Shown: positions 44,008-64,000 of the stretch, piece by piece
Position numbering within the stretch: position 1 is the stretch's first letter
How the letters are laid out: the number at the start of each line of letters is the position of its first letter
Source of the DNA: Dyella marensis
GTDB taxonomy: Bacteria; Pseudomonadota; Gammaproteobacteria; Xanthomonadales; Rhodanobacteraceae
Length of the DNA: 64,000 nt
Reading direction: 5' to 3'
Assembly (NCBI RefSeq): GCF_900112865.1
Contig: NZ_FONH01000006.1
Coordinates: forward strand, 62,001 to 126,000
Notes under the pieces: model-generated
Database searches by the model: none
What the model was told of the DNA's origin: nothing
Seen by the model: the letters and a program-made list of their open reading frames with translations, nothing else
Position numbers and translations under genes: made by a program

Positions 44008-44053
44008 GTGTCCGGACACTTGTCCGCCTGTCCGTCGGTCTGTCCGCGGACAG
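44008..44053 (+). promoter_or_regulatory. TGTCCG palindromes, candidate enhancer (UAS)
   Basis: GTGTCCGGACAC (44008-44019) and CTGTCCGCGGACAG (44040-44053) are perfect palindromes built on TGTCCG. Two further TGTCCG copies (44021 and 44029) lie between them. Their centres are about 100-130 bases upstream of the predicted sigma-54 start, the usual distance for activator sites. The downstream sigma-54 response regulator is the likely ligand. Confidence 0.7.
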
Positions 44054-44118
44054 CGCGCCCCTCCCGGGTGCCCACGCCAACTCGCTGAAAAACAAGCCGA
44101 ATCGATCGTCCTGGCGGT

Positions 44119-44135
44119 TGGCACAGCGCTTGCTG
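44119..44135 (+). promoter_or_regulatory. sigma-54 (RpoN) promoter of the ABC operon
   Basis: TTGGCACAGCGCTTGCT matches the -24/-12 consensus, with GG (44121-44122) and GC (44133-44134) exactly 12 bases apart. Transcription should start near 44146, giving a leader of about 34 bases before the adaptor ATG at 44180. Confidence 0.85.
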
Positions 44136-44179
44136 ATACCGGTCCAGGGGCCACACATGTCCGTGGCCAGGGACCGATC

Positions 44180-45451
44180 ATGATTCGCGATACTTCTGCT
44201 CAAGACCGCCTGGTCGAGGTCAAGCCCAGCCGCAAGCGCAAGCTCATCTTCATTGGAGCCGGCGTTGCCGCGGTGGCCGTGCTGGCGCTCGTGCTGCCGC
44301 AGGCCAGCCGCCTGTTCTCCGCCGATGCCTCGGTCAGCGGCTCGCGTCTTGCCTTCGGCACGGTCGAGCGCGGCCTGTTCGTGCGCGACATCGCCGCCGA
44401 GGGCAAGGTGGTCGCGGCGGTCAGCCCGACCCTGTACGCCACCTACGGCGGCGCGGTCACGCTGAAGGTGCACGCCGGCGACGTGGTCAAGAAGGGCCAG
44501 GTGCTGGCCAGCATCGACAGCCCCGAGCTGATGAACAAGCTGGCGCAGGAGCAGAGCGCCGCCGACGCGATGGAAGTCGACTACCTGCGCTCGCAGATCG
44601 ACGCCAAGAAGAAGCGCGGCGAACTGCAGAAGTCCTACGACAACGCGCAGATCGACCAGACCAGCGCGCAGCGCGACCTGCAGCGCTACCAGAAGGCCTT
44701 CGGCCAGGGCGCCGTGCCCAGCATGAACGTGGACAAGGCCAAGGACGACGTCGAGAAGGCGCGCATCACCCTGGAGCATGCCAAGGCCGATCTCTCCAAC
44801 GACGGCGCCAGCCTCGACTTCGACATCAAGTCGAAGAAGCTCGCCCACGACCGCCAGGTGCTGCTGGTAAAGGACCTGCAGCGACAGGTCGACGAACTCG
44901 ACGTGAAGTCGCCGGTGGACGGCCAGGTCGGCCAGCTGTTCATCGCCGAACGCGCCACCGTGGCCAAGGATGCACAGCTGCTCAGCGTGATCGACCTGAG
45001 CAAGCTCGAAGTGGAAATGAAGGTGCCGGAAAGCTTCGCCCGCGACCTGGGCATCGGCATGGGCGGCGAGATCAGCGGCAACGGCAATACCTGGAAGGGC
45101 CTGGTCAGCGCCATCTCGCCCGAAGTGGTGAACGGCGAAGTGGCCGCCCGCCTGCGCTTCGAGGGCGACACGCCCAAGCAGCTGCGCCAGAACCAGCGCC
45201 TGTCCGTGCGCATCCTGCTGGACCGTCGCGACAACGTGCTGGCCGTGCAGCGCGGTTCCTTCGTCGACGAATCCGGCGGCGCCTACGCCTACATCGTGCG
45301 CGACGGCATCGCCGAGAAGCACCCGATCCGCGTCGGCGCCAGCAGCATCGACAAGGTGGAGATCCTGGACGGCCTGAAGGAAGGCGACCGCATCGTGATC
45401 TCCGGCACCGACAGCTTCAAGAATGCGGCGCGCGTCGCCATCAGCCGCTGA
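44180..45451 (+). CDS. HlyD/MacA-type periplasmic adaptor subunit
   Basis: A 423-residue membrane-fusion protein with one N-terminal membrane helix (about residues 22-42), a lipoyl-like half-motif (GGAVTLKVHAGDVVKKGQVLA, about 90-110), a long alpha-helical hairpin (about 115-235) and beta-barrel/membrane-proximal domains ending in GLKEGDRIVISGTD. It would link the inner-membrane ABC permeases to an outer-membrane channel; no TolC gene is visible here. It is first in the sigma-54-type operon and is followed after 39 bases by the ATPase. Confidence 0.9.
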   Translation: MIRDTSAQDRLVEVKPSRKRKLIFIGAGVAAVAVLALVLPQASRLFSADASVSGSRLAFGTVERGLFVRDIAAEGKVVAAVSPTLYATYGGAVTLKVHAGDVVKKGQVLASIDSPELMNKLAQEQSAADAMEVDYLRSQIDAKKKRGELQKSYDNAQIDQTSAQRDLQRYQKAFGQGAVPSMNVDKAKDDVEKARITLEHAKADLSNDGASLDFDIKSKKLAHDRQVLLVKDLQRQVDELDVKSPVDGQVGQLFIAERATVAKDAQLLSVIDLSKLEVEMKVPESFARDLGIGMGGEISGNGNTWKGLVSAISPEVVNGEVAARLRFEGDTPKQLRQNQRLSVRILLDRRDNVLAVQRGSFVDESGGAYAYIVRDGIAEKHPIRVGASSIDKVEILDGLKEGDRIVISGTDSFKNAARVAISR

Positions 45452-45490: not shown

Positions 45491-46207
45491 ATGCTCAAGA
45501 TGACCCACCTGTCCAAGGTCTACCGCACCGAAGTGGTGGAGACCTACGCGCTGCGCGATTTCAACATCGACGTGAAGGAAGGCGAGTTCGTCGCCGTGAC
45601 CGGCCCGTCCGGCTCCGGCAAGACCACCTTCCTCACCATCGCGGGCCTGCTGGAAACCTTCACCGGCGGCGAATACCACCTGGACGGCGTGGAGGTGAGC
45701 AACCTCAACGACAACGCCCGCTCCAAGATCCGCAACGAGAAGATCGGCTTCATCTTCCAGGCCTTCAACCTGATCCCCGATCTCAACGTGTACGACAACG
45801 TCGAAGTGCCGCTGCGCTATCGCGGCATGAAGGCGCTGGAGCGCAAGCAGCGCATCATGGACGCGCTGGAGCGCGTGGGCCTGGCCTCGCGCGCCAAGCA
45901 CTACCCGGCGGAACTGTCCGGCGGCCAGCAGCAGCGCGTGGCGATCGCCCGCGCACTGGCCGGCTCGCCGCGCCTGCTGCTCGCCGACGAACCGACCGGC
46001 AACCTGGACACCCAGATGGCCCGCGGCGTGATGGAGCTGCTGGAGGAGATCCACCGCGAGGGCGCCACCATCGTGATGGTCACCCACGATCCGGAACTGG
46101 CCACGCGCGCGCAGCGCAACGTGCACGTCATCGACGGCCAGGTGGTCGACCTGGCGGAAGACCCGCGCTTTCACCAGCAGCAGGCGCGCGCCGGCGCGCC
46201 TGCATAA
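45491..46207 (+). CDS. MacB/LolD-type ABC transporter ATP-binding protein
   Basis: A 238-residue ATPase with Walker A GPSGSGKTT (about residue 38), Q-loop FQAFNLIPD, signature LSGGQQQRVAIARAL (about 142), Walker B LLLADEPTGNLD and H-loop MVTHDPE. The LolD/MacB/FtsE subgroup partners FtsX-like permeases. It is the only ATPase for the eight permeases that follow. An R2 repeat begins seven bases after its stop and separates it from the first permease. Confidence 0.94.
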   Translation: MLKMTHLSKVYRTEVVETYALRDFNIDVKEGEFVAVTGPSGSGKTTFLTIAGLLETFTGGEYHLDGVEVSNLNDNARSKIRNEKIGFIFQAFNLIPDLNVYDNVEVPLRYRGMKALERKQRIMDALERVGLASRAKHYPAELSGGQQQRVAIARALAGSPRLLLADEPTGNLDTQMARGVMELLEEIHREGATIVMVTHDPELATRAQRNVHVIDGQVVDLAEDPRFHQQQARAGAPA

Positions 46208-46384: not shown

Positions 46385-47698
46385 ATGTTCGCCTACTACT
46401 TCCAGCTCGGCCTGCGCAGTCTCCGCAAGAATCCGTTGCTCACCGCCTTGATGGTGATGGCGATCGGCTTCGGCGTGGCGGCGTCGATGACTACCTATTC
46501 GGTGTTCCGCGCCACCTCCAACAACCCGATCCCGCAGAAGTCCTCGCAGCTGTTCGTGCCGCAGATCGACAACTGGGGCCCGGAAGACGCGCAGCAGAAC
46601 CAGGGTGAGCCGCCGCGCGCGATGAGCTACACCGACGCGATCGGCCTGATGCGCGACCACAAGGCGAAGCGCCAGACCGCGCTGTATCCGGCCGGCCTGT
46701 CCATCGTGCCGGCGGACGCCAGCCAGCTGCCGTTCCGCGAGAACACCTACGGCGTGTACGCCGATGCGTTCCCGATGTTCGACATCCCGTTCAAGTACGG
46801 CCGCGGCTGGACCCAGGCGGACGACGACGCGCACGCCCAGGTCGCCGTGATCGGCCAGCAGCTCAACGAGAAGCTGTTCCGCGGCGAGAACAGCGTCGGC
46901 CGCGAGATCAACCTGGACGGCCGCAGCTACCGCATCGTCGGCGTGATGGACCACTGGGACCCGCAGCCGCTGTTCTTCGACGCGGTGAATACCGGCGGTT
47001 TCGACGATCCGACCCAGCTGTTCGTGCCGTTCACCCGCATGATCGAGCTGAAGGTGTCGACCAACGGCAACAACAACTGCAACAAGGATCCCGGCACCGG
47101 CTGGGACAACTGGCTGCATTCGGAATGCGTGTGGCTGGGCTTCTGGGCCGAGCTGCCGAGCAAGGCCGAAGCCGACGCCTACCGCAGCTATCTCAACGGC
47201 TATGCGGCCGAACAACAGCGCGCCGGCCGCTTCAAGTGGGCGCCGAATACCCGCCTGCGCAATGTGGTCGAGTGGCTGGACTACCAGAAGGTGGTGCCGC
47301 CGGAGGCGAAGATCTCGCTGCTGGTCGCACTGGGCTTCCTGGTGATCTGCCTGGTCAACACCATCGGCCTGCTGCTGGCCAAGTTCATGCGCCGCTCCTC
47401 CGAGATCGGCGTGCGCCGCGCCCTGGGCGCCTCGCGCAGGGAGATCTACACGCAGTTCCTGATCGAGGCGAGCGCGGTCGGCCTGGCCGGCGGCCTGCTC
47501 GGCCTGCTGCTGACCGGCGTGGGCGTATACGGCATCTCGCTGATCTTCGATCCGCAGGTGGCGCGCCTGGCCAAGCTCGACGTTCCGCTGGTGCTGCTGA
47601 CCTTGCTGGTGGCGATCCTGGCCACGGTGATCGCGGCGTTCTACCCGACCTGGCGCGCCGCTCAGGTGCAGCCGGCCTGGCAGCTCAAGTCCAATTAA
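46385..47698 (+). CDS. FtsX-type ABC permease, pair 1 A-type
   Basis: A 437-residue permease: an N-terminal membrane helix (about residues 18-42), a periplasmic MacB-like domain (about 45-300), then three C-terminal FtsX helices (about 310-330, 360-385 and 395-420) and the tail QPAWQLKSN. The motif EIGVRRALGASRREIY contacts the ATPase. The periplasmic domain has a Cys pair in NNCNKD and SECVWLGFW (15 residues between). It is most like the A-type copy at 48987. The substrate is unknown. Confidence 0.9.
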   Translation: MFAYYFQLGLRSLRKNPLLTALMVMAIGFGVAASMTTYSVFRATSNNPIPQKSSQLFVPQIDNWGPEDAQQNQGEPPRAMSYTDAIGLMRDHKAKRQTALYPAGLSIVPADASQLPFRENTYGVYADAFPMFDIPFKYGRGWTQADDDAHAQVAVIGQQLNEKLFRGENSVGREINLDGRSYRIVGVMDHWDPQPLFFDAVNTGGFDDPTQLFVPFTRMIELKVSTNGNNNCNKDPGTGWDNWLHSECVWLGFWAELPSKAEADAYRSYLNGYAAEQQRAGRFKWAPNTRLRNVVEWLDYQKVVPPEAKISLLVALGFLVICLVNTIGLLLAKFMRRSSEIGVRRALGASRREIYTQFLIEASAVGLAGGLLGLLLTGVGVYGISLIFDPQVARLAKLDVPLVLLTLLVAILATVIAAFYPTWRAAQVQPAWQLKSN

Positions 47699-47713
47699 CC
47701 CGAGGCGACGACC

Positions 47714-48952
47714 ATGCTGCAGATCAAGCCCATTCTCGCCGCCCTCAAGCGCCACAAGGCCGGCACTATCCTGATCGCGATGCAGATCGCGCTGACCCTG
47801 GCGATCGTGTGCAACGCGCTGTTCATCATCCAGCAGCGCGTGGACCGCCTGTCGCGGCCCACCGGCATGGACGAGAACAACGTGCTGGCGATCCAGAACC
47901 GCTGGGTCTCGGTGGACGGCAAGGACACCGCCCCGCTGATCAAGGCCGACGTGCAGGCGCTGCGCCAGACACCCGGCGTGCAGGACGCCTTCGCCACCAA
48001 CTCGTTCCCGCTGCGCGGCGGCGGCTGGTCGACCGGCGTCAACCTGGTGCCGAAGAACGAAGGCAAGTCGACCGCGCAGACCACGCTGTACTTCGTCGAC
48101 GACCATGCGCTGGCCGTATACGGCGCCCAGCTCATCGCCGGCCGCAACTTCACCGCGGACGAGGTGATCACCGCCGACCCGAAGGACATCAAGTCCACCG
48201 CGCAGGTGATCGTCACCAAGGCGCTGGCCGACAAGCTGTATCCGAAGGGCGACGCGCTGGGCAAGCAGCTGTACCTGGGCGGCAAGGACATCCCGCCGAG
48301 CACTATCATCGGCATCGTCGCGCGGCTGCAGGTGCCGTGGAACGGCACCTGGTCGGACAACTTCAACGACAACGCCATGCTGTTGCCGGTGCAGCTGACC
48401 AGCAACTACACGATCTACCTGATCCGCGCCAAACCGGGCCAGCTGGCCGACGTGGTCAATAGCGCGCCGGCGGCTCTGCTCAAGACCAGCCGCATGCGCG
48501 TGATCTCCGGCGACCGCGCGGTGCGCACCTATGAGCAAGTGCGCGGCGACGCCTACAAGAACGACCGCGGCATGGCCATCCTGATGGGCGTGATCTGCGT
48601 GATCCTGCTGGCCATTACCGCTGCCGGCATCGTCGGCCTGACCAGCTTCTGGGTCGGCCAGCGCCGCAAGCAGATCGGCGTGCGCCGCGCGCTGGGCGCG
48701 ACCAAGCGCGACATCCTCAGCTATTTCCTTACCGAGAACCTGATGATCGGCGTGGCCGGCGTGGTGATCGGCGTGGGCCTGGCGATCGGCATGAACCTGT
48801 GGATGGTCTCGCAGTTCGAGATGGCCCGCCTGTCGATCGTCTACGTGGTGGTCGGCGTGGTGGCGCTGCTCCTGCTCGGCCAGGCGGCGGTGCTGGCGCC
48901 GGCCATGCGCGCGGCGAAAGTGCCTCCGGTGGAAGCCACGCGCTCGGTGTGA
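47714..48952 (+). CDS. FtsX-type ABC permease, pair 1 B-type
   Basis: A 412-residue permease of the second type. It opens MLQIKPILAALKRHKAGTIL, has one helix near residues 20-40, a periplasmic domain with TNSFPLRGGGWSTGVNL, and three C-terminal helices with QIGVRRALGATKRDIL. It ends VEATRSV. It starts 15 bases after its A-type partner, with which it probably forms a heterodimer. It lacks the A-type Cys-bounded loop. Confidence 0.9.
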   Translation: MLQIKPILAALKRHKAGTILIAMQIALTLAIVCNALFIIQQRVDRLSRPTGMDENNVLAIQNRWVSVDGKDTAPLIKADVQALRQTPGVQDAFATNSFPLRGGGWSTGVNLVPKNEGKSTAQTTLYFVDDHALAVYGAQLIAGRNFTADEVITADPKDIKSTAQVIVTKALADKLYPKGDALGKQLYLGGKDIPPSTIIGIVARLQVPWNGTWSDNFNDNAMLLPVQLTSNYTIYLIRAKPGQLADVVNSAPAALLKTSRMRVISGDRAVRTYEQVRGDAYKNDRGMAILMGVICVILLAITAAGIVGLTSFWVGQRRKQIGVRRALGATKRDILSYFLTENLMIGVAGVVIGVGLAIGMNLWMVSQFEMARLSIVYVVVGVVALLLLGQAAVLAPAMRAAKVPPVEATRSV

Positions 48953-48986
48953 GCGTGCGGCGATCCCCTTCCAACCAGAGAGAATC

Positions 48987-50309
48987 ATGAGCGGAATGTT
49001 TGTCCACAACCTGCGGCTCGGCGCGCGCAGCCTGCGCAAGAACCCGGTGCTGACCGCGCTGATGGTGATGGCGATCGGCTTCGGCGTGGCGGCGTCGATG
49101 ATTACCTACGCGGTGTTCCGCGCGGTGTCGGGCGATCCGATCCCGCAGAAGTCCTCGCAGCTGTTCGTGCCGCAGATCGACAACCGCGGGCCGCAGTACA
49201 ACAACGGCGGCGAGCCGCCGGACGCGCTGAACTACACCGACGCCGTCGCCTTGATGAAGGCGCACCAGGCCAGGCGCCAGACCGTGCTGTTCGCGGTGCG
49301 CCTGTCGGTGCTGCCGGAGGACGCGCGGAAGGCGCCATTCAAGGTGCCGGGCTATGCGGCGACCGGCGATTTCTTCCCGATGTTCGACGTGCCGTTCCAG
49401 TACGGTTCCGGCTGGAGCGCCGCGGACGACGACGCGCACGCCCCGGTCATCGTGATCAGCCGCAGCCTCAACCAGAAACTGTTCGGCGGCGCCAACAGCG
49501 TGGGCAAGGAGATCGTGCTGGACGACCAGCAGTACCGCGTCGTCGGCGTCACCGAGACCTGGGATCCGAAGCCGCGCTTCTTCGACATGTTCAGCGGCCA
49601 CGCCTACTCCGAGCCCTCGCAGGTCTACATCCCGTTCAACCGCGCGATGGATCTGAAGATCGAGACGGCGGGCAACAACAACTGCGGCGGTGGCGGCAAG
49701 CGCGGCGACGACCGCGAAAGCTGGCTGCGCGGCCAGTGCGTGTGGATCAGTCCCTGGGTCGAGCTGAGCAGCGCGACCGAGGTGGAGCGCTACCGGCAGT
49801 TCCTGGCCTCCTATGCGGATGACCAGCGCCGCGCCGGCCGCTTCAACTGGGCGCCGAACGTCCGTCTGCGCGATGTGCCCGGCTGGCTCGAATACAAGCA
49901 CGCGGTGCCGCCGGAAAGCCGCATCGCGCTGGTGGTGGCGGTGGGCTTCTTCGTGATCTGCCTGGTCAACACCATCGGCCTGCTGCTGGCGAAGTTCATG
50001 CGCCGCGCATCGGAGATCGGCGTGCGCCGCGCGCTGGGCGCATCGCGCGCGGACATCTACCGCCAGTTCCTCGCCGAGGCGGGCATGGTCGGCCTGGCCG
50101 GCGGCCTGCTGGGCGTGGTGCTGACCGGCGTCGGCATGCTCGGCGTGGGCCTGGTGTTCGAGCCGGAGATCGCGCACCTGGCACGGCTGGACCTGTCGCT
50201 GGTGTCGCTGGCCCTGCTGGTGGCGATCGCCGCGACGGTGCTGGCGGCGTTCTATCCGACCTGGCGGGCGGCGCAGGTGCAGCCCGCCTGGCAGCTCAAG
50301 TCCAACTGA
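48987..50309 (+). CDS. FtsX-type ABC permease, pair 2 A-type
   Basis: A 440-residue paralogue of the permease at 46385. The first 60 residues are nearly identical (SLRKNPVLTALMVMAIGFG, IPQKSSQLFVPQIDN), and it keeps the FtsX domain with EIGVRRALGASRADIY and the tail QPAWQLKSN. The Cys-bounded loop is longer and Gly/Arg/Asp-rich (NNNCGGGGKRGDD to GQCVWISPW, 17 residues between). The strong similarity suggests a recent tandem duplication. Confidence 0.9.
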   Translation: MSGMFVHNLRLGARSLRKNPVLTALMVMAIGFGVAASMITYAVFRAVSGDPIPQKSSQLFVPQIDNRGPQYNNGGEPPDALNYTDAVALMKAHQARRQTVLFAVRLSVLPEDARKAPFKVPGYAATGDFFPMFDVPFQYGSGWSAADDDAHAPVIVISRSLNQKLFGGANSVGKEIVLDDQQYRVVGVTETWDPKPRFFDMFSGHAYSEPSQVYIPFNRAMDLKIETAGNNNCGGGGKRGDDRESWLRGQCVWISPWVELSSATEVERYRQFLASYADDQRRAGRFNWAPNVRLRDVPGWLEYKHAVPPESRIALVVAVGFFVICLVNTIGLLLAKFMRRASEIGVRRALGASRADIYRQFLAEAGMVGLAGGLLGVVLTGVGMLGVGLVFEPEIAHLARLDLSLVSLALLVAIAATVLAAFYPTWRAAQVQPAWQLKSN

Positions 50310-50327
50310 GGCGAGGAGATCAAGGCC

Positions 50328-51557
50328 ATGGAAATCAAGCCCATTCTCGCCGCGCTGCGCCAGCACAAGGCCGGCACCATCCTGATCGCCATGCAGATCG
50401 CGCTGACCCTGGCGATCGTATGCAACGCCCTGTTCATCATCCAACAGCGCGTGGCGCATCTGTCGGAGCCCACCGGCATCGACGAGCCGAACATCTTCGT
50501 GATCCAGAACGAATGGATCGGCCAGACCAGCAGCGCCCAGGCGGATGCGAAGCTGCGCAGCGACCTGGACGTGCTGCGTCGCGTGCCCGGCGTGAAAGAT
50601 GTCACCACCAGCAACTCGTATCCGCTGCGCGGCGGCGGCTGGGACGATGGCGTGCGGCTGAGCGCCGAACAGATCGAGGACAGCTCCGACGCGACGATCT
50701 ATTTCGCCGACGAGCACTTCCTCGACACGCTGGACCTGAAGCTGGTCGGCGGCCGCAATTTCCGCGCCGACGAGATCCAGCCCATGAGCATGCGCGACCG
50801 CCTGGCGCCGCCGGTGATCATGGTCACGCGGGCGCTGGCCGAGAAACTGTTTCCCGGCGGCAGCGCCCTGGGCAAAACGGTGTACCTGGTCGGCGGCCCG
50901 GCCACCATCGTCGGCGTGGTGGACCTGCTGCAGGCGCAGAGCGTCGCGCGCTGGGCGTCGAACTTCGCGTATCGATCGGTGATCGTGCCGCGCCGCATGG
51001 CGATCGCGGAAGGCGCCTTCTACATCGTGCGCACCCAGCCCGGCCAGCTGGAGCCGGCCATGATCGCCGCGCGCAAGGCGTTGTTCGCGGACAACCCGCG
51101 ACGGGTGTGGGACGACAAGGAGGGCATCCTCAGCTTCGCCGAGGTGCGCTCGATGGCCTACGAAAGCGACCGCGGCATGGCCGTGCTGATGGGCGTCATC
51201 AGCCTGGTGCTGCTGGCGATCACCGCCGCGGGCATCGTCGGCCTGACCAGCTTCTGGGTGGGCCAGCGGCGCCGGCAGATCGGCGTGCGCCGCGCGCTGG
51301 GCGCCACGCGCGGCGACATCCTCAGCTATTTCATGACCGAGAACCTGTTGATCAGCGTGGGCGGCGCCGTCGCCGGCGCGGTGCTGGCGATCGCCATGAA
51401 TCTCTGGCTGGTCACGCGCTTCGAGATGCACCGGCTGTCGCTGTTCTACGTGCTGGCGGGCGTGCTGATGCTGTTGCTGCTGGGTCAAGGGGCGGTGCTG
51501 GCGCCAGCGATCCGCGCGTCGAAGGTATCGCCGGTGGAGGCGACGCGCTCGGTGTGA
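50328..51557 (+). CDS. FtsX-type ABC permease, pair 2 B-type
   Basis: A 409-residue paralogue of the permease at 47714. It shares the opening MEIKPILAALRQHKAGTILI, the next helix (QIALTLAIVCNALFIIQQRV), the periplasmic motif TSNSYPLRGGGWDDGVRL and the ending VEATRSV. QIGVRRALGATRGDILSYF precedes the last helices. It starts 18 bases after its A-type partner. Confidence 0.9.
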   Translation: MEIKPILAALRQHKAGTILIAMQIALTLAIVCNALFIIQQRVAHLSEPTGIDEPNIFVIQNEWIGQTSSAQADAKLRSDLDVLRRVPGVKDVTTSNSYPLRGGGWDDGVRLSAEQIEDSSDATIYFADEHFLDTLDLKLVGGRNFRADEIQPMSMRDRLAPPVIMVTRALAEKLFPGGSALGKTVYLVGGPATIVGVVDLLQAQSVARWASNFAYRSVIVPRRMAIAEGAFYIVRTQPGQLEPAMIAARKALFADNPRRVWDDKEGILSFAEVRSMAYESDRGMAVLMGVISLVLLAITAAGIVGLTSFWVGQRRRQIGVRRALGATRGDILSYFMTENLLISVGGAVAGAVLAIAMNLWLVTRFEMHRLSLFYVLAGVLMLLLLGQGAVLAPAIRASKVSPVEATRSV

Positions 51558-51598
51558 CCGCGCGCATCGCTCATCAGGGACAAAAGAGGGGAGAGGGC

Positions 51599-52906
51599 AT
51601 GTTCACGTATTACCTGGAGCTCGCGCTGCGCAGCCTCCGGCGCAACAAGGTGCTCACCGGACTGATGGTGGTGGCCATCGCGCTGGGCATCGGCGCCTGC
51701 ATGACCACGCTGACCGTGCTGCACGTGCTGTCGGGCGACCCGATCCCGGCCAAGAGCGCGCGGCTGTTCTATCCGCAGCTCGACCCGCAGGACATGGACG
51801 GCTACCGGGAGGGCGAGGAGCCGCCGGAGCAGGTGACCTGGATCGACGGCCAGAACCTGCTCAAGGCCAGGCGCGCCCAGCGCCAGGCGCTGATGACCGG
51901 CGGCGCGGTGCCGGTGCAGCCGGCGCAGGCCGACGTCGAGCCGTTCTTCAGTGACGCGCGCTACACCACCGCGGATTTCTTCCCGATGTTCGAGGTGCCG
52001 TTCCTGTACGGCCAGGGCTGGAGCGGCGGCGACGACGACGCCAAGGCACGCGTGGCGGTGATCACGCGCAAGCTCAACGACAAGCTGTTCGGCGGCAAGG
52101 ACAGCCGCGGCCAGATCGTGCGGCTGAAGGACACCGCCTTCCGCGTGGTCGGTGTACTCGATGACTGGCGGCCGAATCCGCATTTCTACGATCTCAACAT
52201 GGGCAACTACTCCGAGTCGGAGGAAGTGTTCTTGCCGCTCTCCACCTCGCGCGACCTGGTCCTGCCACGCAACGGCAGCACCAACTGCTGGGGCAGGGGC
52301 GGCGGCAACGACGGCGATCAGGTGGAGAACGCCACCTGCGTGTGGATGCAGTTCTGGGTGGAGCTGGCGAGCCCGGCGGACGCCGCGGCGTACAAGACGT
52401 TCCTGGAGAACTACTCGCGCGAGCAGAAGGCGCTGGGTCGCTTCGAGCGCCCGGTGAACGTGCGCCTGCGCAACGTGATGCAATGGCTGGACCAGGAAAA
52501 AGTGGTGCCCAGCGACGTGCGCCTGCAGAGCTGGCTGGCGATCGGCTTCCTGATCGTATGCCTGGTCAACACCGTCGGCCTGATGCTGGCCAAGTTCCTG
52601 CGCCGCGCCGGCGAGCTCGGCGTGCGCCGCGCGCTGGGCGCGTCCAAGCGCGAGATCTTCAAGCAGCTGCTGATCGAGGCCGGCGTGGTCGGCCTGGCCG
52701 GCGGGGTATGCGGCCTGCTGCTGGCCTTCATCGGCCTGTGGCTGGTGCGCCAGCAACCGGCGGACTACGCCTCGCTGGCGCGGCTGGACCTGGTCATGCT
52801 CGGCGCCACCTTCGCGCTCGCGGTCGGCTCCAGCATCGCGGCAGGCCTGCTGCCCGCCTGGCGCGCCTGCCAGGTCGCGCCCGCGCTGCAACTGAAGAGC
52901 CAATAA
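51599..52906 (+). CDS. FtsX-type ABC permease, pair 3 A-type
   Basis: A 435-residue A-type permease starting MFTYYLELALRSLRRNKVLTG. The frame is open upstream across the previous gene, but this ATG has AGAGG before it and aligns with the other A-type starts. It has the periplasmic motif TADFFPMFEVPFLYGQGW and a Cys-bounded loop (NCWGRGG to ATCVWMQFW, 16 residues between). The FtsX domain has ELGVRRALGASKREIF and ends PALQLKSQ. It is closer to the copy at 54162 than to pairs 1 and 2. Confidence 0.9.
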   Translation: MFTYYLELALRSLRRNKVLTGLMVVAIALGIGACMTTLTVLHVLSGDPIPAKSARLFYPQLDPQDMDGYREGEEPPEQVTWIDGQNLLKARRAQRQALMTGGAVPVQPAQADVEPFFSDARYTTADFFPMFEVPFLYGQGWSGGDDDAKARVAVITRKLNDKLFGGKDSRGQIVRLKDTAFRVVGVLDDWRPNPHFYDLNMGNYSESEEVFLPLSTSRDLVLPRNGSTNCWGRGGGNDGDQVENATCVWMQFWVELASPADAAAYKTFLENYSREQKALGRFERPVNVRLRNVMQWLDQEKVVPSDVRLQSWLAIGFLIVCLVNTVGLMLAKFLRRAGELGVRRALGASKREIFKQLLIEAGVVGLAGGVCGLLLAFIGLWLVRQQPADYASLARLDLVMLGATFALAVGSSIAAGLLPAWRACQVAPALQLKSQ

Positions 52907-52916
52907 GGGAGACACC

Positions 52917-54140
52917 ATGGCCATCCGTCCCATTCTGTCCACCCTGCGCCGCCACAAGACCACGGCCTTGCTGGTGGTGCTGGAGATCGCGCTGACCTGC
53001 GCCATCGTGTGCAACGCGGTGTTTCTGGTCACCCAGCGCATCGACCGCATCCACATGCCCAGCGGCGTGGCCGAGCACGAGCTGATCCAGATCGGCCTGG
53101 CCGACATCGGCAAGACGCCCGACGAGCATGCCCGCACGCTGACCGACCTGGCCGCACTGCGCGCCATCCCTGGCGTGACGGAAGTGGCCTCGGTGAACCA
53201 GATACCTTTCGGCCGTTCGTCGAACAATAGCGGCATCAAGCTCGATCCCAAGCAGAACAAGCCCACCGTCAACGCCACCAACTATTACGGCGAGAACATC
53301 GGCCAGACCCTGGGCGTGCAGCTGGTCGCCGGGCGCCTGCTGCAGCCGGAGGACCATGTCAGCCTCAAGGAGGCGGGCCAGGCCTTCAAGGAAGGCAAGA
53401 CCGAGGGATTGCCGCGCATCGTGGTGATCACCCAGCCGATGGCGGAGCGCCTGTTCCCGGGCCAGTCGGCGCTGGGCAAGACGATCTGGCTGGGTTCGGA
53501 AGTGCCGTTGCAGGTGGTCGGCGTGGTGAAGAACCTGGTACGCCCGTCGATCTGGAACGACGCCGAGGCGCAGTACAGCATGATGCTGCCGATGCGGGTG
53601 GAGGATAACCAGTACCTGATCCGCACCGCGCCGGGCCAGCGCGAGCGCGTGCTGGCCGCCGCGATCGAGGTGCTGAAGAAGAACAACCCGCATCGCATCT
53701 TCTGGCAGAAGCGCACCTGGGACGAGGTGCGCCAGAAGTTCTTCGACAGCGACCGCTCCATGACCGGCCTGCTGATCGGCGTGTGCGTGGCGCTGCTGGT
53801 GGTCACCGCGCTGGGCATCGTCGGCCTGGGCAGTTTCTGGGTGGCGCAGCGGCGCCGGCAGATCGGTGTGCGCCGCGCGCTGGGCGCCACCCGCGGGCAC
53901 ATCCTGCGCTACTTCCAGACCGAGAATTTCCTGCTCGCCACCATCGGCATCGCGATCGGCATGGTGCTGGCCTACGGCATCAACCTGTTCCTGATGGTGC
54001 ATTACGAATTGCCGCGCCTGCCGGCGATCTATTTTCCGGTCGGCGCGCTGGCGCTGTGGCTGATCGGTCAGGCCGCGGTGCTGGGGCCGGCGATGCGCGC
54101 GGCGGCGGTGCCGCCGGTGGTGGCGACGCGCTCGGTGTAA
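52917..54140 (+). CDS. FtsX-type ABC permease, pair 3 B-type
   Basis: A 407-residue B-type permease: MAIRPILSTLRRHKTTALLV, a periplasmic domain with VASVNQIPFGRSSNNSG, and a C-terminal domain with QIGVRRALGATRGHILRYFQ and the ending VVATRSV. Its start is 10 bases after the A-type stop. With pair 4 it forms the second sub-group, marked by NQIPFG/NSIPFG in place of the PLRGGGW motif of pairs 1-2. Confidence 0.9.
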   Translation: MAIRPILSTLRRHKTTALLVVLEIALTCAIVCNAVFLVTQRIDRIHMPSGVAEHELIQIGLADIGKTPDEHARTLTDLAALRAIPGVTEVASVNQIPFGRSSNNSGIKLDPKQNKPTVNATNYYGENIGQTLGVQLVAGRLLQPEDHVSLKEAGQAFKEGKTEGLPRIVVITQPMAERLFPGQSALGKTIWLGSEVPLQVVGVVKNLVRPSIWNDAEAQYSMMLPMRVEDNQYLIRTAPGQRERVLAAAIEVLKKNNPHRIFWQKRTWDEVRQKFFDSDRSMTGLLIGVCVALLVVTALGIVGLGSFWVAQRRRQIGVRRALGATRGHILRYFQTENFLLATIGIAIGMVLAYGINLFLMVHYELPRLPAIYFPVGALALWLIGQAAVLGPAMRAAAVPPVVATRSV

Positions 54141-54161
54141 GCGTTTTTCAGGAGAAAACGG

Positions 54162-55478
54162 ATGTTCGGCTACTACCTCGATCTCGCCCTGCGCAGCCTC
54201 AGGCGCAACATGGTGCTGACGGCGCTGATGGTGCTGGCCATCGCCGTGGGCATCGGCGCCAGCATGACCACGCTGACGGTGATGCACCTGCTGTCGGGCG
54301 ACCCGCTGCCGGGGCGCAGCGACAAGCTGTTCTACGCACAGGTGGACGACAACCTCTCCGCCGGCGACTACAAGGAGCCGCTGGACAAGCAGGGCTATCA
54401 GTCCACCATCGACCTGTGGAACGCCCGCCAGGCCGATCGCCAGGCGATCGTGGTGGAAAGCCCGGTGAAGCTGCGCGCACCGCAGACCACGCTGCCGCCG
54501 CTGATGCTGTCGATGCTGTCCACCACGGCGGATTTCTTCCCGATGTTCGACGTGCCGTTCCGCTATGGCGCTCCCTGGCGCGCCGAGGACGACGCGTCGC
54601 GCGCACGCGTCGCGGTGATTTCGTCCGACCTCAACGACAAGCTGTTCGGCGGCGCCGACAGCGTCGGCCGCACGCTGCGCTTGCGCGATACCGACGTGCG
54701 CATCGTCGGCGTGCTGGGGCGCTGGCGGCCGTCGCCGCAGTTCTACACCGTGGCCGGTGGCCGCTTCGCGGCCGGCAAGACCGCCGACTTCTACAGCAAG
54801 CCGCAGGACATCTTCACGCCGTTCTCCAGCGCGCTGGAATTCAACGACGGCAACTTCTACCAATACACCTGCTCGCAGCCGCCGGCGACGCCAGGCCATC
54901 TGCAGAACGCGCCGTGCGCGTGGCTGGGCCTGTGGGTGCAGTTGAACAGCCCGGACAGGGCCGCGGCATACAAGCGCTTTCTGGATGGCTACGCGGCGCA
55001 GCAGCAGGGGCGCATCCTGCGCCCGCAGAACACGCGGCTGCGCAGCCTGATGGAGTGGCTGGATTTCCAGGGCGTGGTGCCCAGCGACGTACGCCTGCAG
55101 ACCTGGCTGGCGTTCGGCTTCCTGGCGATCTGCCTGTTCAACACGATCGGCCTGCTGCTGGCGAAGTTCCTGCGGCGCGGCGGCGAGATCGGCGTGCGCC
55201 GCGCGCTCGGCGCCAGCCGCGGCGCGATCTTCTGCCAGTGCCTGGTCGAAGCCGGGATGATCGGCCTGGTCGGCGGCCTCGGCGGCCTGCTGCTGACCCT
55301 GCTGGGGCTGGGCCTGGTGCGGAGGCAGCCGGTCGCATTCGCCGACATGGTGCACCTGGATGCGCGCATGTTCGCCTTGACCTTCGTGCTGGCGATCGTG
55401 ACCAGCCTGCTGGCCGGTTTCCTGCCGGCGCTGCGGGCGAGCCGGGTGGCACCCGGCCTCCAATTGAAGACGCTCTGA
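54162..55478 (+). CDS. FtsX-type ABC permease, pair 4 A-type
   Basis: A 438-residue A-type permease starting MFGYYLDLALRSLRRNMVLT. The Cys-bounded loop is YTCSQPPATPGHLQNAPCAW (14 residues between cysteines), the most divergent of the four. It has TADFFPMFDVPFRYGAPW and EIGVRRALGASRGAIF and ends APGLQLKTL. The next gene starts a few bases later. Confidence 0.9.
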   Translation: MFGYYLDLALRSLRRNMVLTALMVLAIAVGIGASMTTLTVMHLLSGDPLPGRSDKLFYAQVDDNLSAGDYKEPLDKQGYQSTIDLWNARQADRQAIVVESPVKLRAPQTTLPPLMLSMLSTTADFFPMFDVPFRYGAPWRAEDDASRARVAVISSDLNDKLFGGADSVGRTLRLRDTDVRIVGVLGRWRPSPQFYTVAGGRFAAGKTADFYSKPQDIFTPFSSALEFNDGNFYQYTCSQPPATPGHLQNAPCAWLGLWVQLNSPDRAAAYKRFLDGYAAQQQGRILRPQNTRLRSLMEWLDFQGVVPSDVRLQTWLAFGFLAICLFNTIGLLLAKFLRRGGEIGVRRALGASRGAIFCQCLVEAGMIGLVGGLGGLLLTLLGLGLVRRQPVAFADMVHLDARMFALTFVLAIVTSLLAGFLPALRASRVAPGLQLKTL

Positions 55479-55485
55479 GGTGTGC

Positions 55486-56700
55486 ATGGAAATCCAACCC
55501 ATCCTGGCGGCGCTGCGCAAACATCGTCTGGCCACCTTGCTGATCGCACTGGAGATCGCGCTGGCCTGCGCGGTGCTGTGCAACGCCTGCTTCCTGATCG
55601 CCAACCGCCTGCAGGCCATGCAGGTGCGCAGCGGCGTGGACGAGGCCGCGCTGGCGACCTTGCAGATCAGCGGCTTCGAGAACAGCCAGGCCAACGACAT
55701 CAACGCGCGCATCCTCGCCGGCCTGCGCGCCATTTCCGGCGTGCAGTCGGCCAGCGTGCTCAACTCGATTCCCTTCGGCGAGCACCGCGGCCGCGTAGGC
55801 ATCATGACCGACGCCGAAGGCAAGCATTTCGGCGGCGTGGTCGAGCTCTATATGGGCGGGCCGGGCAGCCTGGAAGCGCTGGGGCTGCACGTGGTGGCGG
55901 GGCGGCCCCTGCAAGCGGACGATTACCAGCCGTTCGAGGGTGTGTTCCCCACCTCCGCCTCGGTGCTGATGGCGCGGGAGCTCTCCGATCACCTGTGGCC
56001 GGGCGCCGATCCGTTGGGCAAGACCTTCTGGGTGGACAAGTGGTCGTACCGGGTGGTCGGCATTGTCGATTACCTGGTCACGCCCTACCCAAGCTATGCC
56101 GGGCGCAGCGCGCCGGGCTGGTCGGCGTTCGTGCCGGCGCAGCCTGGGCCGATGATGGCCGGCAGCTACCTGATCAAGGCCGCGCCGGCGGATATCGGCC
56201 GCGTACTGCGCGATGCGCGCGAGATGGTGGCCAAGGTCGCGCCCGACGCGGTGCTCGACCAGGAAGGCTCGCAGACCATCAGCGACCTGCGCAATCAGTT
56301 CTTCCAGCAGGATCGCATCATGGCCTTCATGCTGGTCGGCGTGATCGTCGCCCTGCTGCTGGTCACCGCGCTGGGCATCGTGGGCCTGGCCAGCTTCTGG
56401 GTGCAGCAGCGGCGCAAGCAGATCGGCATCCGCCGCGCCATCGGCGCAACGCGCGGCGACATCCTGCGCTACTTCCAGACCGAGAACTTCCTGATCGTCA
56501 GCGGCGGCATCGCGCTGGGCATGGTGATGGCCTTCGCGCTCAATCTGGCCCTGATGAAGTTCTACGAGCTGCCGCACCTGCCGCTGTACTACCTGCCGGT
56601 AGGCGCCATCGCGCTGTGGGCGCTCGGCCAGCTGGCCGTGCTGGGCCCTGCGCTGCGCGCCGCGGCGGTGCCGCCGGTGGTGGCGACGCGCTCCGGCTGA
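55486..56700 (+). CDS. FtsX-type ABC permease, pair 4 B-type
   Basis: A 404-residue B-type permease: MEIQPILAALRKHRLATLLIA, periplasmic motif LNSIPFGEHRGRVG, and a C-terminal domain with QIGIRRAIGATRGDILRYFQ ending VVATRSG. An in-frame GTG two codons upstream is an alternative start; the ATG matches the paralogues. It is the last permease, and a hairpin terminator follows eight bases after its stop. Confidence 0.9.
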   Translation: MEIQPILAALRKHRLATLLIALEIALACAVLCNACFLIANRLQAMQVRSGVDEAALATLQISGFENSQANDINARILAGLRAISGVQSASVLNSIPFGEHRGRVGIMTDAEGKHFGGVVELYMGGPGSLEALGLHVVAGRPLQADDYQPFEGVFPTSASVLMARELSDHLWPGADPLGKTFWVDKWSYRVVGIVDYLVTPYPSYAGRSAPGWSAFVPAQPGPMMAGSYLIKAAPADIGRVLRDAREMVAKVAPDAVLDQEGSQTISDLRNQFFQQDRIMAFMLVGVIVALLLVTALGIVGLASFWVQQRRKQIGIRRAIGATRGDILRYFQTENFLIVSGGIALGMVMAFALNLALMKFYELPHLPLYYLPVGAIALWALGQLAVLGPALRAAAVPPVVATRSG

Positions 56701-58927: not shown

Positions 58928-60754
58928 ATGAAGTTGGTGTCCTGGATGATCTGCGCGAGCCTGCTCGGCTCGGTCACCGTGGCCGGGCCGGTGGCCGCGG
59001 CGCCCCCCGCCGCGCCGGCCGCCGGCGTCGCCGCGCGGGTCAAGACGCTCAATGCGCTGCTGGCCGAGCAGTGGCAGCACAACCTGCAGAACTCGCCGGA
59101 GTTCGCCACCATCCTGGGCGACCTGCGCTACAACGAGCGCTGGAGCGACGTCTCGCTCGCGCACCAGGCGGCCGAGCGCAAGGTCAATGCGGAATTCCTC
59201 AAGCGCTTCGAGGCGATCGACACCACCGGCTTCGCCGACGAGGACAAGCTCAACCAGCAGCTGATGGTGCGCCAGCTCAAGGAAGCGCTGAAGAGCTACG
59301 ACCTGAAGCTCAACGAGATGCCGCTGGACCAGATGAACGGCATGCACCTGCAACTGCCGGGCTTCGTCAGCTCGATCCCGTTCGACAGCGCCAGGCAATA
59401 CGAGGACTACCTCGCGCGCCTGCACGCCGTGCCGCGCGTGCTGGAACAGGTCTCCGAAGTGGCTCGCCAGGGCCTGAAGGACGGCATGATGCCGCCGCGC
59501 TATCTGCTGGAGAAAGTGGTCGGGCAGATCGACAGCATCGCCAGGCCGGCGGGCGAGGAGAACTCCTTCGCCGAGCCGCTGAAGCATTTTCCCAAGTCGA
59601 TCCCGGCCGCCGAGCAGAAGCGGCTGCACGATGCCATCGTCGCGGCCATCGACAACGAGGTGCGCCCGGCTTATCGCAAGCTCGGCCAGTTCGTCGCCAA
59701 GGATTACGCGCCGCACGGCCGCAGCGAGCCGGGTGTGTGGCAGCTGGCCAACGGCGATGCGATCTACCGCTTCGACGTCGAGCAGATGACCACCACCAGG
59801 GAGACCCCGCAGCGCATCCACGAGATCGGCCTGGCCGAGGTGAAGCGCATCGAGGACGAGATGACGGTGATCGCCAAGGGGCAGGGCTACCAGGACCTGG
59901 CCAGCTTCCGCGAGGCGCTCAAGCACGATGCCAAGCTCAATCCGACCTCGCGCGAGGACATCCTCAACCGCTACCGCGGCTTCATCGCGCAGATGCAGCC
60001 GGAGCTGCCCAAGCTGTTCGGCCTGCTGCCGAGAACTAAGGTGCAGGTGATGCCGGTCGAGGCCTACCGCGAGAAGGAAGCTCCCGGCGCCGAATACCAC
60101 CAGGGCACGCCGGACGGCTCGCGTCCCGGCCAGGTCTACGTGAACACCGGCGACTATGCCGACCGCACCACGCTGACCATCGAATCGACCGCGTACCACG
60201 AGGCGATTCCCGGCCATCACATGCAGATCTCGATCGCGCAGGCGCTGCCCGGCCTGCCGCCGTTCCGCCAGCAGGCCGGCTACAACGCCTATGTCGAGGG
60301 CTGGGCGCTGTACGCCGAGCGGCTGGGCAAGGACATCGGTTTCTACAAGGATCCGCTGTCCGATTACGGCCGCCTGTCCGACGAGCTGCTGCGCGCCGAT
60401 CGCCTGGTGCTGGATACCGGCGTGCACTACAAGCACTGGACGCGCCAGCAGATGGTCGATTTCTTCCACGCCCATTCCAGCCAGGACGAGCCCGATATCC
60501 AGGCCGAGACCGACCGCTACATCACCTGGCCGGGCCAGGCGCTGGGCTACAAGATGGGCCAGCTGAAGATCCTGGAGCTGCGCGAGCGGGCCAGGAAGGA
60601 ACTCGGCGAGCGCTTCGATATCCGTGCCTTCCACGACCGGATCCTCGGCGGCGGCGCGCTGCCGCTGGACGTGCTGGAGGCGCGCACCGACGCCTGGATC
60701 GCCGACGTGAAGGCCGGCAAGGCGCCGGCGCATCCCGTCGTTGCCGCCCCGTAA
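58928..60754 (+). CDS. DUF885 family exported metallopeptidase-like protein
   Basis: A 608-residue DUF885 protein with a signal peptide (cleavage near PVAAAPP). A zinc-binding helix STAYHEAIPGHHMQISIAQ (about residue 421) has the H-E-x3-H-H pattern, and VEGWALYAERLGKD supplies a downstream Glu. The fold resembles M32-type carboxypeptidases, and activity on peptides is likely but unproven. The ATG at 58928 gives a normal signal peptide. The response regulator follows 74 bases after its stop. Confidence 0.85.
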   Translation: MKLVSWMICASLLGSVTVAGPVAAAPPAAPAAGVAARVKTLNALLAEQWQHNLQNSPEFATILGDLRYNERWSDVSLAHQAAERKVNAEFLKRFEAIDTTGFADEDKLNQQLMVRQLKEALKSYDLKLNEMPLDQMNGMHLQLPGFVSSIPFDSARQYEDYLARLHAVPRVLEQVSEVARQGLKDGMMPPRYLLEKVVGQIDSIARPAGEENSFAEPLKHFPKSIPAAEQKRLHDAIVAAIDNEVRPAYRKLGQFVAKDYAPHGRSEPGVWQLANGDAIYRFDVEQMTTTRETPQRIHEIGLAEVKRIEDEMTVIAKGQGYQDLASFREALKHDAKLNPTSREDILNRYRGFIAQMQPELPKLFGLLPRTKVQVMPVEAYREKEAPGAEYHQGTPDGSRPGQVYVNTGDYADRTTLTIESTAYHEAIPGHHMQISIAQALPGLPPFRQQAGYNAYVEGWALYAERLGKDIGFYKDPLSDYGRLSDELLRADRLVLDTGVHYKHWTRQQMVDFFHAHSSQDEPDIQAETDRYITWPGQALGYKMGQLKILELRERARKELGERFDIRAFHDRILGGGALPLDVLEARTDAWIADVKAGKAPAHPVVAAP

Positions 60755-60828
60755 CGGCTGAATAGGCCAATGGTCATTACAACGTTTTGCCGGCAGGATG
60801 CATCTGTTCCGGCATGCCCAAGAGCCAC

Positions 60829-62172
60829 ATGCGTACCGTCCTGATCATCGACGACAACCCCGCCGTGGGGGAGGCGCTCTCGCTGGCGCTGTCCCTGCAC
60901 GAAATCCGTCCGCTGACCGCGCTGACGCCGGAGCACGGCCTGGAGCTGCTCGAGCGCGAGCGCATCGACGTGGTCATCCAGGACATGAACTTCACCGCGG
61001 ATACCACCTCGGGCGAGGAAGGCATCGCGCTGTTCCGCGCGATCCGCCAGCGCCACACCGACCTGCCGGTGATCCTGCTGACCGCCTGGACCCACCTGGA
61101 AACCGCGGTGGAGCTGGTCAAGGCCGGCGCCGCCGACTATCTCGCCAAGCCCTGGGACGACGCCAAGCTGCTGGCCACGGTGGAGAACCTGCTGGAGCTG
61201 TCCGAATCCACCCGCGAGGTGAACCGGGCCCGCAACGAGCGCCGCCGCCGCCGCGAGGACCTGGAGCGCCGCTACGACCTCACCGGCCTGGTGTTCTCTT
61301 CCGAGGCGATGGCCCGCACACTGGAACTGGCCTGCCAGGTGGCCCGATCGGAAGTGCCGGTGCTGATCACCGGCCCCAACGGCGCGGGCAAGGAGCGCAT
61401 CGCGGCGATCGTGCATGCCAATTCGGCGGTCAAGCGCGGCGCCTTCGTCGCGGTCAACTGCGGCGCGCTGCCGGGCGAGCTGATCGAAGCCGAGCTGTTC
61501 GGCGCCGAGGCCGGCGCCTACACCGGCGCGAACAAGGCGCGCGAGGGCCGTTTCGAGCTGGCCGACGGCGGCACGCTGTTCCTGGACGAGATCGGCAACC
61601 TGCCGTTGTCCGGCCAGGTGAAGCTGCTGCGCGTGCTGGAGACCGGGCAGTTCGAGCGCCTGGGGTCGGGCCGTACGCGCCAGGTGAAGGTACGCGTGCT
61701 GAGCGCGACCAATGCGGACCTGAAGGCGATGATCCGCGCCGGCAGCTTTCGCGAAGACCTTTACTACCGCCTCAACGTGATCGAGGTGAACCTGCCGCCG
61801 CTGGCCGAACGCATCGACGACATCCTGCCGCTGGCCGAGTATTTCCTCGATGGCCGCGCGGAGCTGACCGACGCGGCGCGCGAGGCGCTGCTGTCGTATC
61901 CGTGGCCGGGCAATGTGCGCGAGTTGAAGAACGCGATCGAGCGCGCCGCGCTGCTGGCAGCCGACGGCCGCGTGCAGCCCGAGCTGCTGAACCTGCCGCA
62001 GACCGCGCCGGCCGCGAACCGCAACCTGGACGAGCCGAGCCGCGAGGCGGTGGAGGCGGCGCTGGACAAGGCGGATGGCGTGGTCAGCCGCGCTGCGCAG
62101 GCGCTGGGCTTGTCGCGGCAGGCGTTGTATCGGCGAATGGAGCGGTACGGGTTGGCGACGCAGGCAAGTTGA
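60829..62172 (+). CDS. sigma-54-dependent response regulator (NtrC type)
   Basis: A 447-residue regulator with a receiver domain ([11 protein letters not shown]; phospho-acceptor Asp in VVIQDMNF, about residue 49; Lys in YLAKPW), an AAA+ domain with Walker A GPNGAGKE, the sigma-54 contact loop [15 protein letters not shown] and [14 protein letters not shown], and a C-terminal Fis-type HTH ([19 protein letters not shown]). It should activate sigma-54 promoters, most simply the one at 44119. In-frame ATG 60814 and TTG 60787 are alternative starts. The partner kinase is 0.5 kb downstream. Confidence 0.93.
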
Positions 62173-62282: not shown

Positions 62283-62366
62283 GGCGAGGCCATGCCTAAA
62301 GATGGTTGCCCGCCGTGCCTGCCGCATATCAAGATGCCGCGATCCAGGCTCCCCGGGGAAACGATC

Positions 62367-62681
62367 ATGCGTCGATGGATGATGTTGGGAATCACGGCCG
62401 CCTTCGCGACGGCAACGGCCCATGCGCAATCCGCCCAGCAGGCCAGCGACAGCTGGGAGCGCCCCGCGGCTGCATCCAGTGCCAGCTACGGCAGCAGTCC
62501 TGCCACGACCTCGCGCGACGGCCACAGCGCGTTCCGCTTCAAGGGCGACGACAAGACCGCCGAGCCGCGCTTCCGTGTCGGCGGGACGACGCAGCGCGGC
62601 AGTGGCCGTCCGCAGGCGAACTGCGACCCTGCCAACGCCGCCTGCCGGCAGGCGCAGACGCGTCCCGGCCAGGGTTCCTGA
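62367..62681 (+). CDS. small secreted protein between regulator and kinase
   Basis: A 104-residue protein with a signal peptide (MRRWMMLGITAAFATATAHA, cleavage before QSAQQ). The mature part is Ser/Gln/Arg-rich and ends with a Cys pair (NCDPANAACRQ). I do not recognise a family. Its stop is directly followed by the GTG of the histidine kinase (TGAGTG), so the two are almost certainly translated from one mRNA. A role as a periplasmic accessory of the kinase is only inference. Confidence 0.65.
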   Translation: MRRWMMLGITAAFATATAHAQSAQQASDSWERPAAASSASYGSSPATTSRDGHSAFRFKGDDKTAEPRFRVGGTTQRGSGRPQANCDPANAACRQAQTRPGQGS

Positions 62682-64000
62682 GTGCTGCGACGCCTCAACA
62701 GCCTGCAGGCGCGCCTGGCGCTGCTGCTGTGCGTGGCCTACATGCTGGGCGCGCTGATCTATATCGGCATCACGCTGTGGCCCTTGCCGCAGCTGCTGCA
62801 ATGGATGAAGCACGACCTCGGCGTGACCGTGCAGGCGCCGTCGCGGCTGGGCGTGTGGGGCGGGCTGGCGGTGAGCGCGGGCGTGGCGATTCCGCTGTCG
62901 ATCTGGCTGGCCGGGCAGGTAATGCATCCGCTCAGCCGCCTGCTGCGCGCGCTGGAGGGCGCGGTAGCCAGTTATCGCGATGGCGACTTCAGCTTTTCGA
63001 TCGCGGCCCGGCGCAATGACGAACTGGGCGAGCTGATCCGCATGCACAACGCGCTGGGCCAGACCTTGCGCGAGCAGCGCCAGAACCTGGCGCAGCGCGA
63101 GCTGCTGCTGGACACGGTGGTGCAGAACACGCCGGTGGCGCTGGTGCTCACCGACGCCAGCGGCCGCGTCACCTACGCCAATATCGCCGCGCGCCATCTG
63201 TTCAACGAAGGGCGCACCCTGCACGGCTTGGATTTCCTCGAACTGCTGGCGGATGCGCCCGATGCGCTGCGCCGTGCGGTGGAAGGCGGCGAGGACGCCT
63301 TGCTGACGGTGGAAATGGACGGCAGCGAGGAGACCTTCCATCTCTCGCAGCGCAGCTTCCGCCTGCAGGGACGGCCGCATCGCCTGCAGCTGTTCCGCCG
63401 CATGACGCGCGAACTGTCGCGGCAGGAAGTGGCGACCTGGAAGCGCGTGATCCGCGTGATCAGCCACGAATTGAACAACTCGCTGGCGCCGATCTCCTCG
63501 CTGGCCCATTCCGGCGCGGAGCTGGCGCGCCGCGGCCAGACCGAGCGCTTGCCCGGCGTGTTCGCCACCATCGGCGAGCGCGCGCGGCACCTGCATGGCT
63601 TCATCGCCGGCTATGCCAACTTCGCCAAGCTGCCGGCGCCGCAGCCGGTGCCGATCCAGTGGCGCCCGTTCCTGGACAGCCTGGCCCTGCACTGCCAGTT
63701 CGGCCTGCAGGGCAGCCTGCCGGAGCAGCCGGGCTGGTTCGACGCGGCGCAGATCGAGCAGGTGCTGATCAACCTGGTGAAGAACGCGCACGAATCCGGC
63801 AGCGCGGAAGACGGCGTGACACTGTCGCTGGCGATCATCGGCCGCGACGTGCGCATCGAAGTGGCCGATCGCGGCCCCGGCATGAGCGAGACCGTGCTGG
63901 CGCAGGCGCTGCTGCCGTTCTATTCGACCAAGCGCTCCGGCACGGGCCTGGGCCTGGCCCTGGCACGCGAGATCGTCGAGGCGCACGGCGGCCGCATCAC
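62682..64000 (+). CDS. sensor histidine kinase (partial, runs off window)
   Basis: An open frame from a GTG immediately after the small secreted gene to the window end, about 439 residues so far. Two membrane helices (about residues 14-35 and 58-80) enclose a very short periplasmic loop. They are followed by a HAMP-like segment (MHPLSRLLRALEGAV), a PAS-like domain (LLDTVVQNTPVALVLTDASG), the H-box VISHELNNSLAPISS (about 263), the N-box LINLVKNAHESG, DRGPGMS and SGTGLGLALARE. The HELNNSLAP box is of the NtrY-like group. It is the natural partner of the response regulator at 60829. Confidence 0.92.
   Translation, partial: MLRRLNSLQARLALLLCVAYMLGALIYIGITLWPLPQLLQWMKHDLGVTVQAPSRLGVWGGLAVSAGVAIPLSIWLAGQVMHPLSRLLRALEGAVASYRDGDFSFSIAARRNDELGELIRMHNALGQTLREQRQNLAQRELLLDTVVQNTPVALVLTDASGRVTYANIAARHLFNEGRTLHGLDFLELLADAPDALRRAVEGGEDALLTVEMDGSEETFHLSQRSFRLQGRPHRLQLFRRMTRELSRQEVATWKRVIRVISHELNNSLAPISSLAHSGAELARRGQTERLPGVFATIGERARHLHGFIAGYANFAKLPAPQPVPIQWRPFLDSLALHCQFGLQGSLPEQPGWFDAAQIEQVLINLVKNAHESGSAEDGVTLSLAIIGRDVRIEVADRGPGMSETVLAQALLPFYSTKRSGTGLGLALAREIVEAHGGRI

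Follow-up and report, generated by a model that had tools for sequence, protein, structure and literature searches.

In the soil bacterium Dyella marensis, a dedicated NtrC-type two-component regulon very probably controls a complete MacB-like tripartite exporter together with accessory membrane peptides. The window (the whole stretch of DNA that was analysed, 64 000 nucleotides) holds the exporter operon, its promoter, the candidate regulator and most of the kinase gene. The earlier note on this DNA had proposed a dedicated circuit for this operon, which might sense envelope stress or the substrate of the transporter. Its sigma-54 control, its TGTCCG enhancers and its cognate NtrC-type regulator were strongly supported by comparative genomics. 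Confinement to the operon was not upheld, as microprotein genes also have the element in front of them, and so do tolC and separate permease pairs in other species. The predicted circuit is thus larger than first guessed. Coordinates are given in Table 1.

The enhancer and promoter element upstream of hlyD

The sigma-54 promoter that had been noted is real: TTGGCACAGCGCTTGCT lies at 44118–44134, with GG at 44120–21 and GC at 44132–33, 12 bases apart. TGGCAC-N5-TTGC was searched on both strands of the 64 kb window and gave a single full match (44119–44134). Transcription is predicted to start at about 44145, and the genome encodes rpoN. The two palindromes and the two TGTCCG half-sites described upstream were all recovered at 44008–44053, which places the array at about −98 relative to the predicted start. 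It has the layout of an enhancer, with conserved candidate activator sites that lie about 80–150 bp upstream and face the same side of the helix. One TGTCCG(N0-2)CGGACA palindrome was observed against 0.03 expected per window from dinucleotide shuffles. An extra TGTCCG is present at 44158, inside the hlyD leader.

A scan of the genome (5.0 Mb), as the earlier note had advised, returned five TGTCCG(N0-2)CGGACA palindromes and 15 full sigma-54 promoters. All five palindromes are identical (TGTCCGCGGACA) and none with a one-base spacer was found in this search. Four of the five lie 77–79 nt upstream of a perfect sigma-54 promoter (probability that four or more would do so by chance, about 3e-16). 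TGTCCG arrays of four to six half-sites were found at exactly those four promoters, and the remaining eleven have none or one. From these four pairs with their arrays, the regulon of this genome is predicted to include, as a minimum, the hlyD operon, a pair of microprotein loci on contig C9 and a microprotein gene on contig C31. Binding of the regulator is predicted at C23:106041, C9:4249, C9:8026 and C31:103646, and perhaps at C32:12217. The fifth palindrome (C32:12217), before pcm–tolC, has no recognisable sigma-54 promoter, which counts against the main reading. In other genomes, tolC is preceded by the complete enhancer–promoter element at four loci (L212, L219, L224 and L225).

The pattern TGTCCGCGGACA-N52..80-TGGCAYN5TTGC was then searched in 114 genomes of the family. 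It was found in 89 of them, covering 23 of 26 genera, with at most seven copies per genome; the reversed control pattern had no match in the same 114 genomes. The promoter is present in all 131 distinct hlyD upstream regions (129 with TTGC, two with CTGC), as are at least two TGTCCG half-sites, and the exact core is found in 108. Genera without the exact core retain TGTCCG half-sites at different spacings, which also counts against the main reading. Named relatives belong to Dyella, Frateuria, Rhodanobacter, Luteibacter, Fulvimonas and Pinirhizobacter. Among named HlyD proteins, that of Dyella sp. SG609 comes closest (96% identity). Six more distant HlyD relatives from outside the family were considered: three have TGTCCG sites and a sigma-54-like promoter, which is inexact in one of them. 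In a fourth, half-sites occur with a partial promoter.

Start-to-start distances between enhancer and promoter were taken from 192 distinct pairs which, like the other family counts, come from related sequences and hence are not independent events. They fall at 56–57 (2 pairs), 65–69 (22), 75–81 (164) and 87–96 (4). Among these pairs, no distance of 58–64, 70–74 or 82–86 was found. The gaps lie at half turns, as a looping activator would impose.

A conserved hairpin was recognized in the 5′ leader of the operon. In 38 sequences, two-sided changes are seen at four of its six pairs and 92% of cells are paired. Folded as a single sequence, the window leader is no stronger than shuffles (z 0.83), so the case for the hairpin is its covariation. 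It was also considered as merely another TGTCCG site; this was rejected, as covariation is seen in the stem but the sequence of the loop drifts. Given the predicted transcription start, the hairpin would lie near the RNA 5′ end, where it may act in RNA stability or translation.

Table 1. Features of the regulon in the window and elsewhere. Positions are those of the window unless a contig or locus is named.
Feature	Position	Strand	Basis or remark
Distal palindrome GTGTCCGGACAC, predicted upstream enhancer site	44008..44019	+	Kept in close Dyella relatives, variable farther away
Two direct TGTCCG half-sites (44021, 44029)	44021..44034	+	Kept in many Dyella and Frateuria
Proximal palindrome CTGTCCGCGGACAG, predicted core enhancer	44040..44053	+	Core TGTCCGCGGACA in 108/131 hlyD upstream regions; helical phasing to promoter
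Sigma-54 promoter TGGCACAGCGCTTGCT	44119..44134	+	Sole full consensus match in window; found in 131/131 hlyD upstream regions
5′ leader hairpin GGCCAC-loop-GTGGCC	44149..44168	+	Between promoter and hlyD ribosome-binding site, just before the latter
HlyD/MacA-like periplasmic adaptor	44180..45451	+	Pfam HlyD_D23; MacA closest in sequence among solved structures
ABC ATPase, LolD/MacB/DarD-like	45491..46207	+	Profile matches
Eight MacB/FtsX-type permeases, four alternating A/B pairs	46385..56700	+	Pfam MacB_PCD and FtsX
Permease starts	46385, 47714, 48987, 50328, 51599, 52917, 54162, 55480	+	
DUF885 protein, regulon-linked in relatives	58928..60754	+	Pfam DUF885; operon member in several genera
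NtrC-type response regulator, predicted activator of TGTCCG sites	60814..62172	+	Receiver, Sigma54_activat, HTH_8; linkage; invariant helix
Membrane histidine kinase	62682..64000, running beyond window	+	Two helices, short periplasmic loop, HAMP, PAS, HATPase
Own-genome site, hlyD operon	Window		Palindrome and promoter
Own-genome site, microprotein locus 1	C9		NlpC/P60 gene next
Own-genome site, microprotein locus 2	C9		Then second microprotein gene and beta-lactamase-fold gene
Own-genome site, microprotein gene	C31		Ahead of SpoU-family (trmL-like) methylase gene
Microprotein genes	L062 from 4389, 8165, 8369; L063; sites in L072–L227	minus (L063)	

The exporter operon and its probable regulator and kinase

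The operon encodes the components of a MacB-type exporter, namely permeases with MacB_PCD and FtsX domains, a HlyD/MacA-type adaptor and a LolD/MacB-like ATPase. Permeases of the same type are 43–64% (A–A) or 37–56% (B–B) identical and those of different types about 20%. Four pairs are present in the window and one to four in the operons of relatives, and solitary pairs occur elsewhere under the same element. The permeases do not belong to the ADOP family (TIGR03434), for which a single long permease scores above 622.3: the A-type matches profile positions 7–401 and the B-type 411–801, each with about 172–190 bits, as split halves. The scores also fall below the cut-offs of the darobactin exporter (DarD/DarC/DarB), with 254.9 against 375 for the ATPase and 79.5 against 450 for the adaptor. 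Judged by sequence, the regulon targets (adaptor, ATPase, permeases and TolC) form a coherent exporter set. The minus strand encodes a DUF3857/transglutaminase-like protein (56795–58675) in the interval from the permease array to the DUF885 gene. A paralogous HlyD–permease system is found elsewhere in the genome (C28:14850–15200), with its own sigma-54 promoter, its own activator and a different palindrome, GGCGTCCGTTCGCGGACGCC.

As had been noted, a regulator gene lies beyond the permeases; it begins 4.1 kb past the last one. The kinase is also present; its gene, from 62682 to about 64064, extends beyond the window. The regulator has the domains of the NtrC type (receiver, sigma-54 AAA+ and Fis-type HTH). 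Its sigma-54 contact loop is GAYTGA; among 63 orthologs, 56 have GAYTGA and six have GAFTGA. The phospho-Asp motif is invariant. The 11-residue recognition helix is identical in all 63 orthologs and differs in the other seven of the eight clear sigma-54 activators encoded by the genome. Assignment to the AtoC, NtrC, PEP-CTERM, GlrR or ZraR families was rejected, all scores being below the curated cut-offs. One of the best NCBIfam matches (341 bits) was to PrsR, a PEP-CTERM-box response regulator (TIGR02915) with the same domain order, but the window regulator is under its curated cut-off (341.4 against 502.6 bits).

Of the 114 genomes, 108 have both hlyD and the regulator gene and four have neither. 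The remaining two genomes (G079 and G107, fragmented assemblies) have hlyD without a close regulator ortholog, which counts against the main reading. In G099, a reduced genome that lacks both genes, the promoter with its TGTCCG sites is still intact. Behind this promoter (L316), an apparent deletion scar fusing a HlyD-like to a kinase-like fragment was seen by eye. Many genera have a one-strand operon of the form hlyD–ABC–permease A–permease B–(DUF885)–regulator. Adjacency in the operon, co-occurrence with hlyD and the invariant recognition helix make the linked NtrC-type regulator the likely cognate activator.

Hydropathy and inspection by eye gave a loop of about 20–25 residues between the two helices of the kinase, conserved in relatives. 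With almost no periplasmic domain, the kinase may detect its signal inside the membrane or via the exporter, as analogy with the Bce modules suggests. A short secreted-looking open reading frame without Pfam match lies between regulator and kinase (62306–62680).

Other explanations of the element were weighed. The enhancers could be real and serve mainly another of the eight clear sigma-54 activators of the genome, such as the C28 paralog, with the linked regulator governing other targets. The C28 activator, the nearest of the other seven, resembles the linked regulator in its recognition helix (ITRQSLYRRL), and the operon that it serves encodes another HlyD exporter. However, the promoter of that operon carries its own palindrome, and the linked regulator follows hlyD in presence and position throughout the family, so that we consider this explanation unlikely. 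It is still less probable that a repressor or some other regulator type occupies the TGTCCG array while sigma-54 activation uses a different enhancer. Regulators of many types can bind inverted repeats of such a size, but the distance of about −98 and the helical phasing match a sigma-54 enhancer, a gene linked to the operon encodes a sigma-54 activator and no other conserved upstream element stood out in the aligned hlyD upstream regions that were read. Finally, a GC-rich genome could yield GG-N10-GC matches and palindromes by accident, and imperfect GG-N10-GC matches are indeed frequent in the 64 kb window. Chance is already refuted by the empty reversed control, the probability computed for the own genome and the conservation in every hlyD upstream region.

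Microproteins and other targets of the element

The genes downstream of 89 distinct sites were read, in a sample picked to omit most hlyD promoters. The targets were microprotein genes (58), hlyD (10), permeases (about 10), tolC (four) and pcm (one). Unrelated genes lie downstream of some sites, which counts against the main reading. In one genome (L317), enhancer and sigma-54 promoter lie right before a gene of the DUF885 family, which is represented in the operon here.

Besides hlyD, the most frequent targets are single-helix membrane microproteins of 27–73 residues. They have in common a core of about 26 residues, of the kind MKFETLMLRSLFVACLLVCGLILGAM, and some have a tail ending in CALPPDGVVCPR. 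An MK..E-like start was demanded in the search, which fixed those positions in advance; among positions not demanded, Met26 is found in 61/61 and Cys19 in 59/61. A Shine-Dalgarno-like sequence precedes 74 of 78 microprotein open reading frames. Codon differences are more numerous at the third position (9082) than at the others (7025 and 4146). Together, the third-position bias and the Shine-Dalgarno-like sequences give moderate support for coding. No Pfam family was matched above threshold. The genes often lie directly before a trmL-like methylase gene and occur as tandem copies at 20 of the 58 sites.

The microproteins were also considered as precursors of peptides exported by the ABC system. 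This was rejected: the forms of 27–29 residues are almost nothing but helix, which makes the membrane helix the conserved part. With slightly less than even confidence, we suggest that the microproteins may be regulated partners that act with the exporter, or may regulate its kinase by feedback, in which case the main output of the circuit would tune the exporter.

The proposed circuit and related systems

In the proposed circuit, the membrane kinase (62682 onward) would phosphorylate the response regulator (60814–62172). The regulator would then oligomerise on the tandem TGTCCG sites (44008–44053) and reach sigma-54 RNA polymerase at 44119–44134 through looping. Transcription from about 44145 would run into the hlyD–ABC–permease operon. 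Through the same element, in fixed helical phase, the same activator would also drive the microprotein genes; in other species it would further reach tolC and the separate permease pairs. The products would be the MacA/MacB-like adaptor, the ATPase, the permeases, the TolC channel (in several species) and the microproteins. Dependence on sigma-54 in the cell and export by this machinery are likewise predicted.

According to the consulted part of a 2025 promoter survey (PMC12316311), sigma-54 promoters are enriched before FtsX-like/COG0577 ABC permeases, gamma-Proteobacteria included, as a predicted link. Sigma-54 promoters thus precede ABC antimicrobial-peptide-type permeases there as here, but that part of the survey gives no activator, enhancer motif, regulon or microproteins for such a system. 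In the Bce modules (BceAB–BceRS; PMC10314905), a permease of the FtsX/MacB superfamily is also linked to a two-component system, and the kinase resembles that of the window in having two helices joined by a very short loop on the outside. Unlike the OmpR-type Bce partner, the activator here is of the NtrC type and predicted to be sigma-54 dependent; because of this regulator, the window system is not a Bce member. It also differs in its Gram-negative tripartite layout with adaptor and TolC, as predicted, like the whole circuit, by sequence comparison. With MacA–MacB–TolC it shares the adaptor, the ATPase, the MacB-type permease domains and, in the regulon of some species, the outer-membrane channel. 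In contrast to that system, ATPase and permeases are encoded by separate genes, the permeases form multiplied A/B pairs, and control is predicted to be exerted by sigma-54 and a linked regulator.

The one paper returned by a literature search for TGTCCGCGGACA concerns the CD164 gene and is unrelated. No description of the regulon, the motif or the microproteins was found in the literature searched, which covered a minority of the subscription journals. MacB/FtsX-type exporters are widespread and, to our knowledge, their control is little understood. The present analysis gives a testable cis-element, an activator and a target list for one bacterial family, and in several species it links the outer-membrane channel with this control. 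It reveals a previously unnoticed, unnamed microprotein family on the same switch. With four A/B pairs behind a single promoter, against one pair in simpler relatives, the permease array would be a good system for the study of diversification of exporter specificity.
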